63,951 bases of DNA from Pseudohongiella sp. (GTDB taxonomy: Bacteria > Pseudomonadota > Gammaproteobacteria > Pseudomonadales > Pseudohongiellaceae): contig JAUYSM010000003.1 of NCBI GenBank assembly GCA_030696315.1, positions 1 through 63,951 of the forward strand, in the 5' to 3' direction. The position numbers and the translations under genes are program-made. Position 1 is the first letter of the stretch, and each line of letters opens with the position of its first letter. The notes under the pieces were generated by a model. The model had not been told where the DNA came from. It saw only the letters and a program-made list of their open reading frames with translations, and ran no database searches. Below are positions 1,755 through 9,810 of the stretch, in pieces.

Positions 1755-2267
1755 ATGAAGTTACACGGCGACATCACCATCAACGGCAAACTTTATCCTG
1801 CCGGCAGCGACATATCCGCCTGGAAAATCTACCCGTTTTTCCTCTTTCACATGGGCATTTTCGGCAGTAGCGGCTTTTTCCTCGCATACGCCGACACAGA
1901 GGTCCCCACGCTGTTCCTCTACGCCCATGGCGGCTTTGCGCTGCTGATTTATCTGATGTTTTACAACATCCTGTTCGGCCGCGATGAGGTACGCTGGATG
2001 TTCATCAATGCTGCACTGGGCGGCTTCGGGATTTACGCCGAGCTCAGATGGATACTTGCTCTGCAGGATTTGAACATCGCAGATTTCCCCCCGACGGTAC
2101 ACGTGATCCCGTTTATGTACTACATCATGTACACATTTCTGTTGCGGCAGATGGCGCTCGACCTGAGCGGTTCGCGCGAGAATCCTCAACGGCGACGTAT
2201 CGCCGAGAGGGTCTATATCGTGGTTTCGATACTGGTGTATGTGGTGATTTTTTGGGTGGGGCGGTAG
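1755..2267 (+). CDS. small polytopic membrane protein of unknown function
   Basis: 170 aa from ATG 1755, with AGGAG about 10 nt upstream. The N-terminus (MKLHGDITINGKLYPAG) is hydrophilic. Hydrophobic segments follow at roughly residues 24-43, 52-70, 76-96, 110-128 and 148-167, broken by short charged loops such as FGRDEVRW and SGSRENPQRRR. I do not recognise a catalytic motif or a named family; it resembles short conserved inner-membrane proteins of gammaproteobacteria. It is divergent from the phosphatase gene, and palindrome copy 2 sits directly in front of it. It appears to be a single-gene unit, followed by an AT-rich spacer. Confidence 0.7.
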   Translation: MKLHGDITINGKLYPAGSDISAWKIYPFFLFHMGIFGSSGFFLAYADTEVPTLFLYAHGGFALLIYLMFYNILFGRDEVRWMFINAALGGFGIYAELRWILALQDLNIADFPPTVHVIPFMYYIMYTFLLRQMALDLSGSRENPQRRRIAERVYIVVSILVYVVIFWVGR

Positions 2268-2532
2268 GTGGGTATCTTTAACTCGATCAAGACCAGAGGT
2301 TTTTCAGCAGTGCGGGTTTAGTCGAAGGGCTCTACCAAATTGCGATCTAAAAATAAAAATAGCCGTCATAACATATTGTTTATTAAAATATTATATTGCT
2401 AATCAAAACTCTCACGAGCATGGAATATCATTTTATCTCATTGTTTTTTAAAATAATTATTACAACATTGCCCCGCATCACTTATCGTGTATTATAGGCA
2501 TCAGTTAAACCAACTTTTTAGGAGCAATTGCG
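2268..2532. other. AT-rich intergenic region ahead of the RiPP operon
   Basis: No gene seen. From about 2330 onward the sequence is dominated by A/T tracts, in contrast to the GC-rich upstream genes. It carries the likely RiPP promoter at its right end and A-tracts that could act as UP elements. No terminator hairpin is evident after the 2267 stop. Confidence 0.6.
2468..2495 (+). promoter_or_regulatory. putative sigma-70 promoter of the RiPP operon
   Basis: TTGCCC at 2468-2473 and TATTAT at 2490-2495 are separated by 16 bp. This predicts transcription starting near 2502, about 30 nt before the precursor start codon. It is embedded in AT-rich DNA. This is the best match in the spacer, but it is a pattern call only. 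Confidence 0.45.
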
Positions 2533-2715
2533 ATGCAAGACTTAGCCCGGCAAGGAGCACACGCAGAGAATCTCGACAGTCGCTGTAACTTGGATGTTGA
2601 TCTCTCTACAATCTCCAGCCCAGCATTGGCTAGAATTATCAATGAAATCAAGAATAACGACCTGTCAGATACTCACTCAGCATACGATCGCGTCCACAAT
2701 CGCCACAACAGATAA
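2533..2715 (+). CDS. yhhA: YhhA-type cyclophane RiPP precursor peptide
   Basis: 60 aa from ATG 2533 behind a strong AGGAGC site 7 nt upstream. The leader carries a hydrophobic helix-like stretch, LSTISSPALARIINEIK (residues 24-40). The C-terminal core is THSAYDRVHNRHNR (47-60). The core contains Y51-D-R53, H55-N-R57 and H58-N-R60, each an aromatic/His residue followed two positions later by Arg, the spacing used by radical SAM enzymes that join a ring carbon to a beta-carbon (three-residue cyclophanes). The Y..H..H pattern and the neighbouring genes match what I recall as the YhhA family. The next gene, encoding the maturase, starts 8 bp after the stop. There is no cysteine or double-glycine cleavage motif in the core; the only Cys (C18) is in the leader. 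Symbol recalled from family naming, not checked. Confidence 0.75.
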   Translation: MQDLARQGAHAENLDSRCNLDVDLSTISSPALARIINEIKNNDLSDTHSAYDRVHNRHNR

Positions 2716-2723
2716 TACAATGC

Positions 2724-3845
2724 ATGCTGATTCATACAGTACTGCTTAAAGTTGCGAGCCGCTGCAATATTAATTGCAGTTACTGCTATGTCTACAATAT
2801 GGGTGATGAAGGTTGGCGTGATATGCCGCACCTCATTACATCTGATAAATCCGAACTGCTATTTTTCCGACTCGAGGAGTTGTCCAACGAGCAGTCTCCA
2901 CCCTTCGCAGTAGTACTTCACGGTGGAGAACCCCTAATGATGGGCGCTCGCCGCTTAGAGCACCTATTTCGGGGGCTTCGCGAATCGCTCTCTGACAAAT
3001 ACCCGATAAGCATGCAGACAAATGGCATGCTTCTCAATTCCCAGATTCTTGATTTATGCTCGGACTACAGAATTTCAATTTCAGTGAGCCTGGATGGTCC
3101 ACAACACGTTAATGACAAATTTAGAGTAGATCACAAGGAACTGGGCACTTTTGATCGCGTTGTCGCTGGCATTCAACTATTGAGTAACCACCCGGATGCC
3201 AATTTTCTGTTTGCGGGAACGTTGTCGGTAATTGAACCTAATTCGGATCCAAGAGAAATCTACGCCTTCCTGAAAGATTTGCGGTCGCCTTCTCTGGATT
3301 TTCTGTATCGCGATGGTAACCACACTAATTTGCCTTATGGGAAACAGGATTTTAACTCAACGGAGTATGGCGATTGGTTGTCAGCGCTACTAAACATATA
3401 TTGCGCAGACCCATCGCCTCCTAGGATCAGATTCCTTGATGATCTTGTCAGGCTTGCACTTGGGCAAACTGGTATTAAAGAAGGATTGGGCGACAACAAC
3501 TACGGCATACTGATTATCGAAACTGATGGAAGCATCACAAAAAATGACACATTAAAGAGCGCGTTTAATGGTGCAGACAAATTCGATAACAAGTGGCACC
3601 TCAAATCTGATGCACTAAGCTCAGTCATTTCATCCGATGAATTCAAAAATTACCACTCAATGCAAAGACCCTCATCGACCATCTGCAATCAATGCTCGTT
3701 TTTGCCTATTTGCGGCGGTGGTATGCCTCTTCATCGGTGGAAGGCTGGCACTAACTTCGACAACCCATCAGTATATTGCAACGACCAGAAGAAAATAATT
3801 TCAGCTGTAGTAGCAAAACTGCAAGAATCAGGACTTGCAAATTGA
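2724..3845 (+). CDS. yhhB: radical SAM/SPASM peptide maturase, cyclophane-forming (YhhB-like)
   Basis: 373 aa. The radical SAM cluster motif CNINCSYC gives C14, C18 and C21 close to the N-terminus, followed by a conserved YVYN-type continuation and the HGGEPL stretch (family GGEP motif) in the first half. Toward the C-terminus, C321, C324, C330 (in LPICGGG) and C352 (SVYC) form a SPASM-like auxiliary cluster region. This is the layout of enzymes that install C-C cyclophane rings on ribosomal peptides. The precursor lies immediately upstream and two oxygenase genes overlap downstream. No clear ribosome-binding site precedes ATG 2724, so translation may be coupled to the precursor stop 8 bp upstream. 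Codon and base composition are AT-richer than the flanking genome. The exact substrate rings are inferred. Confidence 0.88.
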   Translation: MLIHTVLLKVASRCNINCSYCYVYNMGDEGWRDMPHLITSDKSELLFFRLEELSNEQSPPFAVVLHGGEPLMMGARRLEHLFRGLRESLSDKYPISMQTNGMLLNSQILDLCSDYRISISVSLDGPQHVNDKFRVDHKELGTFDRVVAGIQLLSNHPDANFLFAGTLSVIEPNSDPREIYAFLKDLRSPSLDFLYRDGNHTNLPYGKQDFNSTEYGDWLSALLNIYCADPSPPRIRFLDDLVRLALGQTGIKEGLGDNNYGILIIETDGSITKNDTLKSAFNGADKFDNKWHLKSDALSSVISSDEFKNYHSMQRPSSTICNQCSFLPICGGGMPLHRWKAGTNFDNPSVYCNDQKKIISAVVAKLQESGLAN

Positions 3846-4435
3846 TCTCAAAGCAAATATCGGACGGCACATATACCGAGACCCCGTTCCCATACTACAT
3901 TTGCCACACATCATTTGATCCAGAGTTCAGCTACACGCTCCTCAACTGGCTCCAAACGGAAGCTCCATGGTCGCTTACAGTAGCGGATTTCTATGAACAG
4001 TATGAGTTCAGTTTTTTTGACGTTGATCTCCCGGCATCTCTTTCTTGCATTAAGTTGCAGAATTATTCCGATACCATAAAACATTTGGTGGCTTCAAAAT
4101 TTAACACCCGACTAGCGGAAAACTTTGATTTGACCGCTCACAAACTGACGGCTGGTCAAACAATTAGGTTACATAATGACTATATCGAAGGTCAGGAAAC
4201 ACATCGGGTCATAATCCAACTAAATAACGGCTGGGAGATGAACCAAGGCGGTCTATTGATGCTGTTTAACAGCAAAGACCCAGCGGATATTCACAGGGCT
4301 TTGCTGCCTGTTCATAATAGTTGCCTTGCATTCGAAATTAGCCAAAAATCAAATCATGCAGTCTCTACAATACTTAGTGGAGAACGCTATACAATGGTCT
4401 ATTCCTTCTACAGGCTACCTGAAGAAAAGCAGTGA
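3842..4435 (+). CDS. yhhC: 2OG-Fe(II) oxygenase of the RiPP operon (YhhC-like)
   Basis: 197 aa if read from TTG 3842, which overlaps the maturase TGA (TTGA) and has AGGA 8-9 nt upstream. An ATG at 3776 would extend it 22 codons into the maturase gene and is less likely. The iron ligands of the double-stranded beta-helix fold are visible: H111-x-D113 in RLHNDY, H172 in QKSNHAV, and R182 in SGERYTMVYSFYR as the 2-oxoglutarate-binding Arg. Such enzymes hydroxylate an amino-acid side chain. Placed between the cyclophane maturase and an HExxH-type hydroxylase, it most likely modifies the YhhA core. The stop overlaps the next start (GTGA). Confidence 0.82.
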   Translation: MISKQISDGTYTETPFPYYICHTSFDPEFSYTLLNWLQTEAPWSLTVADFYEQYEFSFFDVDLPASLSCIKLQNYSDTIKHLVASKFNTRLAENFDLTAHKLTAGQTIRLHNDYIEGQETHRVIIQLNNGWEMNQGGLLMLFNSKDPADIHRALLPVHNSCLAFEISQKSNHAVSTILSGERYTMVYSFYRLPEEKQ

Positions 4436-5274
4436 ATATAACCGAGACTGTTATACGCGAAATTAACAGCGATCCATTTTTGCCGTGGTTGCCAAACCTG
4501 ACAGAAATGTTGGTATTGGCCGCATCAAAGCAGATGCTCACTAAGACACAACTGGAATTGCTTGAATACTCAAGCAGCATGTTTTTATATAATACAGCTC
4601 CGACTCTTCGGATACCTCTCAGTACTATTATTAAAAAAAATCACTACCTCAGCGTTGCGTTGGAGAGCATCCCGGACTCATATCTACTTGAATTGAGCTC
4701 TATCGGAATAGATCCGGTTGATTTAGACAAAGCGCACACAATTGCGATTATCGACGCCATCAATATGGCTTACTCATATATAGCAACAGATCCTAGTCTA
4801 TTCGACACAATCAACTGGTTAATTCGGTCAGTGCACATTATTGGCACTGCAGACCCTGATACTGACATCAGCTACAGCAACCCAGCTATACCGTTCTCAA
4901 TATTCGTTTCAGTTCCAGACATGAAATTTCCGAATGCCGTTGAACGGCTAGCCGAGTCAATTATCCATGAAGCCATGCATTTGCAGCTTACACTTATCGA
5001 AAATTTCTTACCCTTGGTATCAAACGAGAGGACTGAGTTTTTTTCACCCTGGAAAGGTTCCAATCGCAGCGCACGTGGGATACTACATGCAATCTATGTT
5101 TTTTGCTCAATTAGGGCCGGATTGAGCCGACTAACAACGGAACGTAATGCATACATCAAGTCGCGCACTTCCCAGATTACGAAAGAGATGATTCTCGTGA
5201 AAGACTTCCCATTTGAGCAATCGCTGACACCTGAAGGGCAACTGCTGCTAAGAAAACTGATAGCTGCCGCATGA
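4432..5274 (+). CDS. HExxH-motif putative peptide beta-hydroxylase of the RiPP operon
   Basis: 280 aa from GTG 4432, overlapping the previous stop by 4 bp. The diagnostic motif is HEAMH (H179, E180, H183) in ESIIHEAMHLQ, followed about 35 residues later by RGILHAIYVF, whose His (about 219) could be the third metal ligand. This arrangement resembles the HExxH proteins found in RiPP clusters that I recall as 2-oxoglutarate/iron beta-hydroxylases rather than peptidases. The rest is mostly helical and lacks a signal peptide, consistent with a cytoplasmic tailoring enzyme. Its presence beside a second, unrelated oxygenase suggests two hydroxylations of one peptide. It ends 2 bp before the stop of a convergent gene. 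Function inferred from motif and context. Confidence 0.75.
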   Translation: MNITETVIREINSDPFLPWLPNLTEMLVLAASKQMLTKTQLELLEYSSSMFLYNTAPTLRIPLSTIIKKNHYLSVALESIPDSYLLELSSIGIDPVDLDKAHTIAIIDAINMAYSYIATDPSLFDTINWLIRSVHIIGTADPDTDISYSNPAIPFSIFVSVPDMKFPNAVERLAESIIHEAMHLQLTLIENFLPLVSNERTEFFSPWKGSNRSARGILHAIYVFCSIRAGLSRLTTERNAYIKSRTSQITKEMILVKDFPFEQSLTPEGQLLLRKLIAAA

Positions 5275-5276
5275 TC

Positions 5277-7394
5277 TTAGCGATAGCGTGTATTTGAATA
5301 TTCTACCTTGCAAGTTTGACCAAGTCGAAGCACAGCCAACCGATGTTCCAACTCAATTTTTATCGCAACCCTGTCCTTAACTTTTGGTCCAATTACTATT
5401 TTGGATCCAGCTTCTTCAAAGAAAACTGGAGTTGTTTCAATAAACACTCGGGATCCAAACTTAAAGTCCTTCCTTTTAATCCCGGGATTGGATGGGGTTC
5501 TTGCAGCGACGACTCTTAGTTCTTTTTCAGTTCGGTACTCATCTCCTTTGTACAAGTAAAGTAATTCACTCATTATGTCGCGAACCAATCTTTTCATCGT
5601 ATCTTGGCTTTTAACAGAAATGCCTTTGTCTGTCATGAATGCATTAATACGTTCAAGAATTGGCAAGATTTTTTCCATGACGGTTTTCACAGACTCATCA
5701 TCGTACTTCACACGGTATAAAACTGGTCTTACCGGGTCTGAATTCACTTCTACGGAATCTCTTTTTTTCCAACCACCGCTCATTATGGGAGCTTCGTGAG
5801 CACCATCAAAAACAGATACAGGTGTGACTATGCAAAAGCCAGATCCATCGTTTCCGTACGCGCGCCATAGGTCCAGTCGATCTTTATCCTCTGAGAACGA
5901 CCCTATGTGAACGGAGAAATCATAGTCTTTCCACTGATTCGGGCCTTCATCAGCATTCTCGTTGAAGAAGGATTCCAAATAATTTACTTTGCCATGACTG
6001 GGTCTGAACCTAATTAGCCGCTGTCCTTCATCAGGGTCATTGAAGTACGCAATATGATTCAATCTAAGTACATTAGACATACCTGATTTATTGTCAGGAA
6101 GCATACTCCTAATCGTTTCGACACTCTTCGTGTAGTGTGCAACAAACTCGATTTCGTTACTTTCGCTAGTTACCTTATGATCAGACTTAATATCATCAAC
6201 AATTTTGTAGAGTTCCAAAAATGAATCTACGATCTGCTTAAACTTGTTGTCTCCAGTCAGTCCGATCAAATTGAAATATATATAGGAAGGCATTGAGCCT
6301 TGATCCATAGACTTACGAAACAACTCCAACTTCTCACCCATTGCGGCGTCAACTGCAAGATCATGTTGTGCATCCCGAGAACCCAAGTTTGCTGCATCCT
6401 CAAGACGCTTTTTTAGTTGCTCCTGATCAACTGAATTTTGTACTTTTGAGAATTCATACACTATCCGTGAGAACTCACTTCTTGATGCCTCTGAACCATG
6501 AAATTTTTGTAAGATTTCATTTGACAACCAAGCAAGAATTTCCTGCCAGCCCTGATCTTCCTCTCCCTGCTGCATCTTCAACTCATCGACATATCTAACA
6601 ACGATCAGCAAAAGCTCATCGGAAACCTGGCGCTGCTTTTTCTTTGCATCCTCTATCGCTTCAGAAGCTGCCTGCGAAGCCTCCTTCAATTCAAGTAAAA
6701 GGAATTGCCCCAAGGTCAGTTTTGATAGAACGGCTTTGTAAAACAGGGATAGGGGATAGTCCTCTATTGAGTAGTCTTCGTTCGCTGTCTTGGCTTTTGC
6801 TTCCTTGGCAGATTTTATTGCCAATTCCGCATACTCAAGAGACTTTTTCGTATCTTGCACTACACCTTTACCACTGTAGAACACCTTGGCTAGTTCAAGT
6901 TGGGCTCCGGCACCACCAAGCTCCGCCATCCTGAATTTCCAGTTGTATGCCTCCTCGGGGGATATATCCAAGTGATATTCTGCCAACTGAAACATCGCCT
7001 CGGTTGGATTGTCTTCAGCCCCAGCTGCGCGTTTTATCCACTCAAGGAATAACTCGACATTCTGCGCAGTACCTACTCCCTCTTTATAGGCCATCGCCAA
7101 ATCGAAATAGGCCCAAGACAAATTATGCTGTTCTGCCGCCAGCTTTAACCATTCGAAGGCTTTGCGACTGTCAGGCTCTGCGCCAATCCCTTTTTGATAG
7201 CTATTGACAACTTCCTGCATGGAGTCAGAAGCGCGTTGCTTTGCCTGTTCACCGTCAGAATCCGCAAAGGAAACTGCTCGCTTCAAATGTTGTTGAAATT
7301 TTGACAGTGCACTTTGCTTTTTGGACTTACCCCAGTACCCTGGACACTTCCGGTTTTTATTGTGCTTATTTCTAAACTTCACGTTACCAACCAT
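5277..7394 (-). CDS. Sel1-like repeat protein with C-terminal DUF2971-like domain
   Basis: 705 aa from ATG 7394, preceded by AGGAGAG. The N-terminus (about 10-60) is Lys-rich. Residues about 65-250 contain Sel1/TPR-like helical repeats with repeated A-F-E-W-L-K-L-A-A, A-M-A-Y-K-E-G-V-G-T and Y-S-G-K-G-V signatures. A helical linker follows. The last part (about 420-650) carries LRLNHIAYFNDPDEGQRLI and LWRAYGNDGSGFCIV, features of DUF2971 proteins, which are uncharacterised and often found in accessory regions. No signal peptide. It converges tail-to-tail on the RiPP operon with 2 bp between stops and shares its AT-rich composition. Whether it belongs to the RiPP system or is separate cargo cannot be told from sequence. 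Confidence 0.78.
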   Translation of the reverse strand: MVGNVKFRNKHNKNRKCPGYWGKSKKQSALSKFQQHLKRAVSFADSDGEQAKQRASDSMQEVVNSYQKGIGAEPDSRKAFEWLKLAAEQHNLSWAYFDLAMAYKEGVGTAQNVELFLEWIKRAAGAEDNPTEAMFQLAEYHLDISPEEAYNWKFRMAELGGAGAQLELAKVFYSGKGVVQDTKKSLEYAELAIKSAKEAKAKTANEDYSIEDYPLSLFYKAVLSKLTLGQFLLLELKEASQAASEAIEDAKKKQRQVSDELLLIVVRYVDELKMQQGEEDQGWQEILAWLSNEILQKFHGSEASRSEFSRIVYEFSKVQNSVDQEQLKKRLEDAANLGSRDAQHDLAVDAAMGEKLELFRKSMDQGSMPSYIYFNLIGLTGDNKFKQIVDSFLELYKIVDDIKSDHKVTSESNEIEFVAHYTKSVETIRSMLPDNKSGMSNVLRLNHIAYFNDPDEGQRLIRFRPSHGKVNYLESFFNENADEGPNQWKDYDFSVHIGSFSEDKDRLDLWRAYGNDGSGFCIVTPVSVFDGAHEAPIMSGGWKKRDSVEVNSDPVRPVLYRVKYDDESVKTVMEKILPILERINAFMTDKGISVKSQDTMKRLVRDIMSELLYLYKGDEYRTEKELRVVAARTPSNPGIKRKDFKFGSRVFIETTPVFFEEAGSKIVIGPKVKDRVAIKIELEHRLAVLRLGQTCKVEYSNTRYR

Positions 7395-7502
7395 TCTAAG
7401 CTTCTCTCCTGAAACTCATTTGCAGACAACTGCTATTTGGAAAACGGGTTTAAATCGAAGTCGATACATGCAACCGGGCTGTTCACTCAATCAGCAGTCT
7501 AC

Positions 7503-7718
7503 ATGACCATCAAGAGTAAAATGCAACTACTTGCGCAATCCTCCTTTGATTTAATAGCATATTTTTTTACTTTAGGCGCAGGTTATTTCCACGAATCATT
7601 GGCCTTCCCAGATTTTGATACAGCGTTGCAAACTGAGTTAGTAGCAGCATTGCATATAACGAAGCCGATCTACTTTGATCAACTATTGCATACAAAGCTT
7701 ACCGCGGAGGTAATTTAG
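7503..7718 (+). CDS. possible small protein, unknown (may be a remnant)
   Basis: 71 aa from ATG 7503, beginning MTIKSKMQLLAQSS and containing FDTALQTELVAALHITKP. The composition looks protein-like, but there is no good ribosome-binding site and no recognisable motif. It could equally be the decayed end of a gene lost at the edge of the AT-rich segment. It is divergent from the Sel1/DUF2971 gene. Confidence 0.25.
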   Translation: MTIKSKMQLLAQSSFDLIAYFFTLGAGYFHESLAFPDFDTALQTELVAALHITKPIYFDQLLHTKLTAEVI

Positions 7719-8013
7719 TCGGGGTTTTAAAACGATTTCATTGCAGGCAATCAGGCAAGAATTAGCCGCGTTTCATATGCTCCCTGATTTATGCCATCAA
7801 CCTCCAGATTCTGAAATTGCTCCGGAAAATCCGACAATGTGGGTCCAAAGCAAACTACCACCCTGCAAGAGTGTACAATTTATGTAACTCCAAGCACTGT
7901 GGACCTGCTTCGGTTTCACGTGCAGACTCCTCACACTGCCTGAGTAACTGCTCGAAACTGGTTGGCTGCAAGAGTTGAAACTCATGCTTTGCAATTTACG
8001 GGGCAGATGAGGA

Positions 8014-8039
8014 GACGGAGCTCTGCGACCTCCGTCCCC
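8014..8039 (+). repeat. REP-like palindrome, copy 3
   Basis: Arms GACGGAG and CTCCGTC around loop CTCTGCGAC, in the same orientation as copies 2 and 4 and preceded by the shared AGATGAG flank. It lies 42 bp beyond the stop of the minus-strand peptidase gene. Confidence 0.85.
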
Positions 8040-8080
8040 GATACTTACCTGCCCCCGATGCTTACCTCCGTCCCCGTGCC

Positions 8081-9715
8081 TCACTCCCAGACACGCTCCA
8101 CCGGCAAGGGCTTGCGGGGCAAGGGCTCAGCCCGCATCGCGGCGTTATACAAAAACGACGCAATCACCACCGAGGCCTGCATCAGGTCTTCACGACGCGC
8201 ATAGTCGTAGGTATCCAGGTGTGAATGGTGCGTACGTGTGTTGTAGTCCAGGCGATCCTGCACAAACTGGAATCCCGGAATGCCGACATCATCAAACGGA
8301 ATGTGATCCGTTGAGCCGGTATTGCGCAGCGTGACTGTGTCCGCACCCAGATCATTAAACGGCTTTAACCAGGCTTCAAAAATCGGTTGTACCGCAGAAT
8401 TTTCCTGCGCGTAGACACCACGAATCTTGCCGCTGCCGTTATCCATGTTTAAATAAGTGACATGGCGCGCATGGCCGGGCAACAGCTGAATCGGCCAGGT
8501 CACATCACGCACACGCGCGGGAATAGACAACTGCTCGGGATCGGTGGATTCGGGACGCGTGGCAATGTGCTGCGCAACATAGGCGCGACTGCCGATCAAA
8601 CCCTGTTCTTCACCGGACCACAACGCAATACGGATGGTACGCTCAGGCTGCACACCAATAGCTTTCAGAATACGTACCGCTTCCATGATGGCGGCGACGC
8701 TGCCAGCGTTATCGGTTGCACCCGTGCCAGCGTGCCAGGAATCGAGATGCGCGCCGACCAGCACAATTTCATCCGCACGGCGGCCACGGCCTGGAATTTC
8801 AGCGATGGTGTTATAGGCGTTGAGATCTTCTTCATGAAAGCGCGCTTCCACTTCCAGTGACACCGATACCGGACGCTCATCGTCGAGCAGCCGCGTCAAC
8901 ATGTTGTAGTGCTCGGCTGCCATCTGCAGTGACGGTACGCCGGGATTGGCGTCGGCGTCCTGCGCGGCACCCGCGCCGAGGCGCACGATGCCGTAGTCGC
9001 GCGAGCTGATGTAGAGTGTTGCCACTACCCCTTCATCCTGCAAATAAGCATTAAGCTTTTCGCGGAAGTGATGCGTTCTGGCACGCGCGCCGGCCACCGG
9101 GGGTGTGGCATCGGAGGGGATAGGAAAATTGATCAAATTTTCCAGGGTGTCGTCGTCATGACGGTGCACCATGGACGTTTCACCTTCGGCAATCACGCGC
9201 GGGGCTTCCATCATCAGAATCTTTCCAGCCAGTTTGCCGCGATGTGTTTCCAGATCGTCATCGTCTTCCAGCGTGATGCGCATCACCTCACCCTGCACAA
9301 TCCCGTTGGTGCCCGGCGTCCAAGCGCGCGGATAAGCAATCAATGGCTCCTTGCGTGGGGACTCCATGTGCAAGGATACGCGGTCAAACGACCAGCCTTT
9401 GCCAAAGTGGAAGGGTTCCAGTCGTGCGTCACTCAAACCCCACGCCGCCAGTTTATCGCGCGTCCAGGCATTGGCTTCGTCCATACCGGGCGAGCCGGTC
9501 AGTCGCGATCCAATGACATCAGTGAGCTGCCAGAGTGTATCCATGACCTGTGAGCGGTGCAGCCCCTCCTGGCGGATGCGGGTGACAACGTCGAGGTCCA
9601 CGTGCTCTGCAGGCGATGCGGCCGTCTGGGCAAACACACTATTACTGATGGGGGTATAAGAACTGAACAGGACCACAGCGGTGGCCACCATGGCGGGTTT
9701 AAGCAACTTGAGCAT
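8081..9715 (-). CDS. exported M28-family zinc metallopeptidase
   Basis: 544 aa from ATG 9715, with AAGGAGAA about 8 nt upstream. Longer readings upstream run through a palindrome and are rejected. The N-terminal signal peptide (MLKLLKPAM...NSVFAQ) predicts a periplasmic or secreted enzyme. The M28 two-zinc site is complete: H323 and D325 in GAHLDSWHAG, D335 in TDNAGSV, E369-E370 in SGEEQG, D425 in LNMDNG, and a late His in HHSHLDTYD. The region at about 120-240 likely forms a PA-type insert domain, common in carboxypeptidase Q-like members. Such enzymes act as aminopeptidases or dipeptidases. It stands alone, with palindromes on both sides (9784 and 8014). Confidence 0.9.
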   Translation of the reverse strand: MLKLLKPAMVATAVVLFSSYTPISNSVFAQTAASPAEHVDLDVVTRIRQEGLHRSQVMDTLWQLTDVIGSRLTGSPGMDEANAWTRDKLAAWGLSDARLEPFHFGKGWSFDRVSLHMESPRKEPLIAYPRAWTPGTNGIVQGEVMRITLEDDDDLETHRGKLAGKILMMEAPRVIAEGETSMVHRHDDDTLENLINFPIPSDATPPVAGARARTHHFREKLNAYLQDEGVVATLYISSRDYGIVRLGAGAAQDADANPGVPSLQMAAEHYNMLTRLLDDERPVSVSLEVEARFHEEDLNAYNTIAEIPGRGRRADEIVLVGAHLDSWHAGTGATDNAGSVAAIMEAVRILKAIGVQPERTIRIALWSGEEQGLIGSRAYVAQHIATRPESTDPEQLSIPARVRDVTWPIQLLPGHARHVTYLNMDNGSGKIRGVYAQENSAVQPIFEAWLKPFNDLGADTVTLRNTGSTDHIPFDDVGIPGFQFVQDRLDYNTRTHHSHLDTYDYARREDLMQASVVIASFLYNAAMRAEPLPRKPLPVERVWE

Positions 9716-9783: not shown

Positions 9784-9810
9784 GGGACGGAGCTCTGCGA
9801 CCTCCGTCCC
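9784..9810 (+). repeat. REP-like palindrome, copy 4
   Basis: Perfect arms GGGACGGAG and CTCCGTCCC with loop CTCTGCGAC on the plus strand, preceded by AGATG as in copies 2 and 3. It lies between the divergent peptidase and methyltransferase genes, 62 bp before the latter's upstream ATG. Confidence 0.85.

Follow-up and report, generated by a model that had tools for sequence, protein, structure and literature searches.

We propose that four tightly packed genes at positions 2533 to 5274 of a Pseudohongiella sp. contig (GenBank assembly GCA_030696315.1, contig JAUYSM010000003.1, positions 1 to 63,951; this full 63,951-nucleotide stretch is referred to below as the window) form an operon for a ribosomally synthesized and post-translationally modified peptide (RiPP) of the YhhABC, or triceptide, type that includes a free-standing aKG-HExxH-type peptide beta-hydroxylase. 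We put the probability of this interpretation, in which one peptide would receive up to three rings and be acted on by two oxygenases, at roughly 0.7. All four genes lie on the forward strand with open frames. They encode YhhA, a precursor of 60 amino acids (2533-2715); YhhB, a cyclophane-forming radical S-adenosylmethionine (SAM)/SPASM maturase of 373 amino acids (2724-3845); YhhC, a 2-oxoglutarate (2OG)-Fe(II) oxygenase of 197 amino acids (3842-4435); and the HExxH protein of 280 amino acids (4432-5274). We abbreviate these genes as A, B, C, and H. The close spacing described in an earlier interpretation of the bare DNA (the sequence-only reading) is present throughout: A and B are separated by 8 bp, C begins with a TTG inside its overlap with the stop codon of B (TTGA), and H begins with a GTG that overlaps the stop codon of C (GTGA). 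The list of open reading frames places the start of C at an upstream TTG (3776).

All four proteins passed the curated cut-offs of NCBIfam models, which comprise three equivalog models, for YhhA (NF041705, E = 1e−14, 54.4 bits, cut-off 36), YhhB (NF041707, 509.5 bits, cut-off 445), and YhhC (NF041706, 244.2 bits, cut-off 150), and the hydroxylase family TIGR04267 for the HExxH protein (80.9 bits, cut-off 40). The YhhABC family, which the sequence-only reading had named, was thus recovered by these models, and the 60-residue frame, whose conservation that reading had left to be checked, is a conserved YhhA precursor with alignable relatives. As judged from the sequences, the four-gene arrangement is far beyond chance, and it is not peculiar to the window, since nine other loci keep A-B-C-H intact. 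A promoter that had been listed as seen is not supported: a scan of positions 2260 to 5320 on both strands found 8 sigma-70-like sites versus 7.0 (standard deviation of 2.7) in shuffled sequences. An AGGAG resembling a ribosome-binding site is visible by eye 8 bp 5′ of the first ATG. No gene for a transporter or other export function, and none for a protease or other leader-cleaving enzyme, was found within the operon.

The C-terminal core of YhhA reads S-A-Y51-D-R53-V-H55-N-R57-H58-N-R60, and its leader holds a conserved SPALARIINEI segment. Across nine aligned precursors, R34 of the leader and Y51, R53, H55, R57, H58, N59, and R60 of the core are invariant, and in 13 of the 18 YhhA sequences the core extends to the final residue of the precursor. 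The end of YhhA carries three candidate ring motifs (YDR, HNR, and HNR). Characterized YhhB links C3 of Tyr or C2 of His to Cβ of Arg (PMC11002830, in part; here and below, "in part" marks sources represented by excerpts). Given these known Tyr-Arg and His-Arg links, the YxR and HxR motifs of the core fit three rings, and by analogy the product probably contains the cyclophanes Y51-R53, H55-R57, and H58-R60. A relative, L154 (locus labels are ours), has Phe at the position of Y51, a swap that an aromatic ring partner should allow. In the pathway that we envisage, YhhB would recognize the YhhA leader and couple each aromatic side chain to that of the arginine two positions further along, giving as many as three small cyclophanes (Tyr51-Arg53, His55-Arg57, and His58-Arg60). 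Hydroxylation of the ringed core by YhhC (Fe/2OG, beta-helix) and the HExxH protein (Fe/alpha-ketoglutarate [aKG], zincin-like) would follow, with the middle residues Asp52, Asn56, and Asn59 as the most plausible sites. Of these, Asp52 would be our first candidate for the HExxH enzyme, since the reported hydroxylation targets of ChlH on the related peptide ChlA are Asp and His (PMC12636437, in part). From this gene set we infer that both oxygenases act on a single peptide and, likewise, their sites, order, and number.

Catalytic motifs that had been read from the DNA in all three enzymes are present, and every residue checked (seven cysteines in YhhB, four positions in YhhC, and eight in the HExxH protein) is invariant in 10 of the 10 intact operons. 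In YhhB these are C14, C18, and C21 of a CxxxCxxC motif plus four further cysteines, and its solved relative is the radical SAM domain of ChlB (9gm3, E = 1.7e−58). YhhC matches PF13661 and PF13640 above cut-off, retains H111-x-D113, H172, and R182, and has OGFOD1 and PolD (9blq) as its nearest solved sequences. A structural model of YhhC, of modest confidence (mean predicted local distance difference test [pLDDT] of 69.1), ranks OGFOD1, Tpa1, PolD, and PasI first. We take the YhhC fold to be that of a double-stranded beta-helix oxygenase, unlike the fold of the HExxH protein. On the models, the Fe/2OG enzyme YhhC and the zincin-like HExxH protein are structurally unrelated predicted oxygenases.

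The sequence-only reading had allowed for the HExxH protein turning out to be a zinc peptidase, and the profile and structural comparisons place it elsewhere. Beyond the TIGR04267 match, its best solved sequence relative is the ChlH hydroxylase domain (8s5f, E = 2.3e−12), and the region aligned with ChlH shares the HExxH motif, SPW, R212, and H219; H179-E180-x-x-H183, SPW, R212, and H219 make up its invariant set. An AlphaFold2 model built from six sequences (mean pLDDT of 84.6) gave five PDB matches with E < 0.001, namely, four 8s5f chains (E = 1.7e−9) and SjiH (22ob, E = 1.7e−7), followed by BlaR1 (E = 0.58) and then Wss1 (E = 2.9). Both of these entries include peptidase domains, a zinc peptidase in the case of BlaR1. 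No peptidase domain was found in a Pfam scan of the protein, and none was matched in the fold search with E < 0.5. By its sequence, the HExxH protein is a member of the aKG-HExxH peptide hydroxylase family and a predicted hydroxylase.

The arrangement recurs among relatives of YhhB. We compared 16 loci with a close YhhB: the window, one Vibrio plasmid (L002), five loci from a contig scan (L006 to L010), and nine from other genomes. The contig scan covered the best 80 of 479 relatives; best-segment identity to the window YhhB was 53 to 61% for L006 to L010 and at most 37% for the other 75 loci. Ten of the 16 close loci retain intact A-B-C-H in the same order: the window, L006 (Paucibacter), L007 (Methylomicrobium), L008 (an uncultured member of the Pseudomonadales), L009 (a Hymenobacter metagenome-assembled genome, which may be mis-binned), L131, and L147 to L150. 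Because YhhB is identical in L149 and L150, these amount to about nine independent copies.

Over the 10 intact operons, mean identity is 64% for YhhB, 55% for YhhC, and 40% for the HExxH protein. Their pairwise distances are strongly correlated (B-C, 0.963; B-H, 0.968; C-H, 0.958), and none of 5,000 label permutations reached the observed value in any of the three comparisons. The ratio of nonsynonymous to synonymous divergence (dN/dS) of the HExxH gene is 0.11 to 0.25 in five of six pairs (synonymous divergence [dS] is saturated in the sixth), and the gene is under purifying selection. One value runs counter to this trend, a dN/dS of 1.03 for YhhC between L149 and L150, where differences are near zero (nonsynonymous and synonymous proportions of 0.008 each). 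Co-divergence, invariant residues, and the low dN/dS of the HExxH gene together show that selection maintains this fourth gene, that it is inherited along with the other three, and that it is no accident of the window. As a separate observation, synonymous divergence climbs along the operon, both between L007 and L147 (B, 0.14; C, 0.50; H, 0.71) and between L149 and L150 (B, 0; C, 0.008; H, 0.34), as if the front part of the operon had recently been exchanged by recombination in each pair.

The remaining close loci are less complete. Contig ends cut L010 (whose B is, in addition, split between two frames), L151, and L154; L153 is a more distant locus with B only; and L002 carries A-B-C without H. 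Four genes are recognizable in L152 (987-3834), with B and the HExxH gene interrupted and C perhaps shortened. Among the 75 more distant loci, tblastn with the window proteins gave YhhC and HExxH matches in L019 and HExxH-like matches in L013, L035, and L046. The YhhA profile found no precursor in L019 (gene order B, H, C) or in another distant locus, L146 (B, C). Plasmids yielded YhhB-like matches in 142 records, of which we examined four. On plasmids of Rhizobium and Novosphingobium (L003 and L005), the HExxH domain is fused to the maturase, and YhhC was neither annotated nor detected by profile at these two loci. In L004, an IS21 pair sits between the maturase and HExxH parts.

Several of these observations weigh against our interpretation. 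The Vibrio plasmid copy does without the HExxH step, which is dispensable there, and its core, GAYDRTHNRHNRGQ, is practically the same as that of the window. Because the core is nearly unchanged with or without the HExxH gene, hydroxylation sites cannot be assigned by covariation of core with gene content, and an attempt to do so failed for this reason. L152 is apparently decaying. Chemistry also varies within the aKG-HExxH family, whose members carry out Gln hydroxylation coupled to oxidative backbone cleavage (PMC12636437, in part) as well as Pro hydroxylation (PMC13060819, in part). To these points we add the modest confidence of the YhhC model and the imperfect superposition of the HExxH model on 8s5f, with a TM score of 0.58 to 0.62 (normalized to query length) and a root mean square deviation (rmsd) of 12 to 13 Å versus 4.2 Å on 22ob; because of the large rmsd, the 8s5f match is one of fold and not of each domain position.

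Some of the same loci raise the possibility, which we consider rather unlikely, that one oxygenase is a passenger, acting elsewhere or decaying, and that the other alone acts on YhhA. Either enzyme appears to suffice somewhere, as seen in the A-B-C set of L002 and in the HExxH-YhhB fusions of L003 and L005, and L152 is broken in both B and H. However, in 10 loci both oxygenases are intact, catalytically complete by their residues, and co-diverging, and the selection on the HExxH gene also speaks against a passenger. Somewhat less probable still is that YhhC is the sole hydroxylase and that the HExxH protein performs a release step, a PflC-like oxidative backbone cut that frees the ringed core from its leader. 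The operon has no protease gene, and two members of this enzyme family, PflC and PosC, cleave the backbone oxidatively (PMC12636437, in part); yet the nearest characterized relative, ChlH, is reported as a beta-hydroxylase on a near-identical core, and the Vibrio copy lacks the HExxH gene altogether. Moreover, with the core reaching the last residue in most precursors, the cut would be needed on the leader side, where no ARMD motif is visible by eye. Removal of the leader by the HExxH protein acting as a zinc metallopeptidase, suggested by the HExxH motif and by the want of another protease in the operon, is very improbable and was rejected in view of the TIGR04267 match, the sequence and fold matches to ChlH, the ChlH-shared SPW, R212, and H219 that are invariant in 10 of 10 operons, peptidase-domain entries that begin only at E = 0.58, and no Pfam peptidase match.

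Two known systems come closest to this operon. The window shares with the YhhABC triceptide type (YhhB WP_013448981.1) matches to the YhhA, YhhB, and YhhC models and the YxR and HxR motifs, and it adds a fourth, overlapping aKG-HExxH gene relative to the modeled three-gene set. The ChlA/ChlB/ChlH system of Chlorogloeopsis (9gm3, 9gmc, and 8s5f) is related to the window in its core and in its radical SAM and HExxH domains. Whereas ChlB combines both activities in one fused chain, YhhB and the HExxH protein of the window are products of separate genes (2724-3845 and 4432-5274), and ring 2 of the core is HHR in ChlA and HNR in the window YhhA. In 9gmc the ChlA peptide carries an R3A mutation; it aligns with the Novosphingobium YhhA, and the two cores are identical except for the mutated residue. 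The source studies are Sugiyama et al. 2022 for YhhB and Morishita et al. 2024 for ChlA/ChlB/ChlH. On a substrate whose cyclophanes are already in place, ChlH is reported to carry out beta-hydroxylation of Asp and His (PMC12636437, in part). BpmH, PflC/PosC, and PesO belong to the aKG-HExxH family, like the HExxH protein of the window; unlike it, they occur in clusters with MNIO enzymes and other peptides (PMC12636437 and PMC13060819, and PMC12257519 for BpmH, all in part). SjiH (22nu and 22ob), compared by PDB titles and fold alone, matches the HExxH model as given above, and no paper under that name was among the matches listed.

The operon is built entirely from named families, and each oxygenase also occurs without the other (A-B-C and the B-HExxH fusion). 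What may be new is the presence of both oxygenases with one precursor, the HExxH protein being free-standing, in 10 intact loci. No paper on the four-gene combination was among the matches listed in the open-licence literature, a scope outside which the two likeliest source studies fall. Because this comparison rests solely on open-licence searches, and partly on the best-listed matches (25 of 1,203 and 15 of 473), novelty is not established.

The operon is rare around its host. The maturase was detected in 1 of 15 genomes of the genus (E ≤ 1e−60) and in 1 of 194 genomes of the order and 1 of 398 genomes of a phylum sample (E ≤ 1e−70), and YhhC was above cut-off in 1 of 369 genomes of a class sample; in each case the genome was that of the window. 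Searches around other members recovered the maturase from 2 of 200, 8 of 261, 1 of 217, and 2 of 293 genomes, with the starting genome counted in each. A 5.8-kb segment at 2259-8082, which holds the yhh operon together with a single convergent Sel1/DUF2971 gene, is likely an insertion, with a G+C content of 43.5% versus 54.2% in the rest of the window. In a congener (G006), the two flanking genes are adjacent and 43 bp apart, with just a palindrome between them, although the right-hand gene is itself broken there. Because the flanking genes are scarce in the genus (left-hand gene in 2 of 15 genomes and right-hand gene in 6 of 15, the window's own counted), the empty site rests on this one congener. 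On these sequence comparisons, the operon was probably acquired horizontally. Loss in G006 instead of gain is possible; the low G+C content and an occurrence in just 1 of the 15 congeners favor gain.

Two particular routes of acquisition were considered and rejected. For a phage origin, viral contigs gave no confirmed relative; the phage collection contributed 25 records, the 20 matches listed all had less than 29% identity, and the four annotated among those listed were two sulfatase maturases and two radical SAM domain proteins. A tRNA-targeted island was set aside since there is no tRNA within the window. A palindrome-like repeat of 23 bases occurs in four exact copies (1444-1466, 1712-1734, 8014-8036, and 9786-9808), with none expected from shuffled sequences. 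One copy falls within the insertion, about 46 bp from its right end; the palindrome at the empty site of G006 is a different one.

Genes related to defense recur next to yhh loci; this is a side observation from PADLOC runs on 10 hand-picked neighbors, without controls. Two yhh operons face a convergent gene for a DUF2971 protein, and a third has one less than 4 kb away (window, 5277-7394; L006, 8511-9533; L002, 9203-11064; all on the reverse strand). The DUF2971 protein of the window also has Sel1 repeats and a weak PADLOC match to PDC-S31 (E = 1.9e−5), and the L006 copy has no such match; a purpose-built DUF2971 profile matched just its own source loci, which is weak evidence. Septu PtuB/PtuA genes are convergent to the yhh operons of L008 (8652-10866, reverse strand) and L009 (8555-10826, reverse strand). 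Upstream of three fused or split relatives (L005, 1190-4098, reverse strand; L004, 2-4381; L003, 2281-3825, reverse strand) lie an Argonaute with its partner, CBASS genes, and a Fic protein matching PDC-S24. The five intact copies from the Methylomicrobium order each have a convergent gene, 11 to 13 bp from the HExxH stop codon, for a HEAT-repeat protein whose N terminus resembles a signal sequence by eye (L007, 8579-9952; L147, 3134-4594; L148, 8569-10053; L149, 5017-6510; L150, 8564-9940).

We tentatively extend our interpretation further, at odds that we would put below even. Two unrelated Fe/aKG oxygenases might split the work on one tri-cyclophane, each modifying different ring residues, and so define a new class of multiply hydroxylated triceptides, and the transferable cluster may serve in competition or phage defense, a suggestion prompted by the Septu, Argonaute, CBASS, or DUF2971 genes that neighbor several copies, fused-type ones among them. 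Because the core is close to that of ChlA, the solved maturase-peptide complex (9gmc) and hydroxylase domain (8s5f) can guide tests of these ideas. With two unrelated oxygenase folds apparently acting on one small ringed substrate, the rules by which each chooses its residues would become directly comparable.

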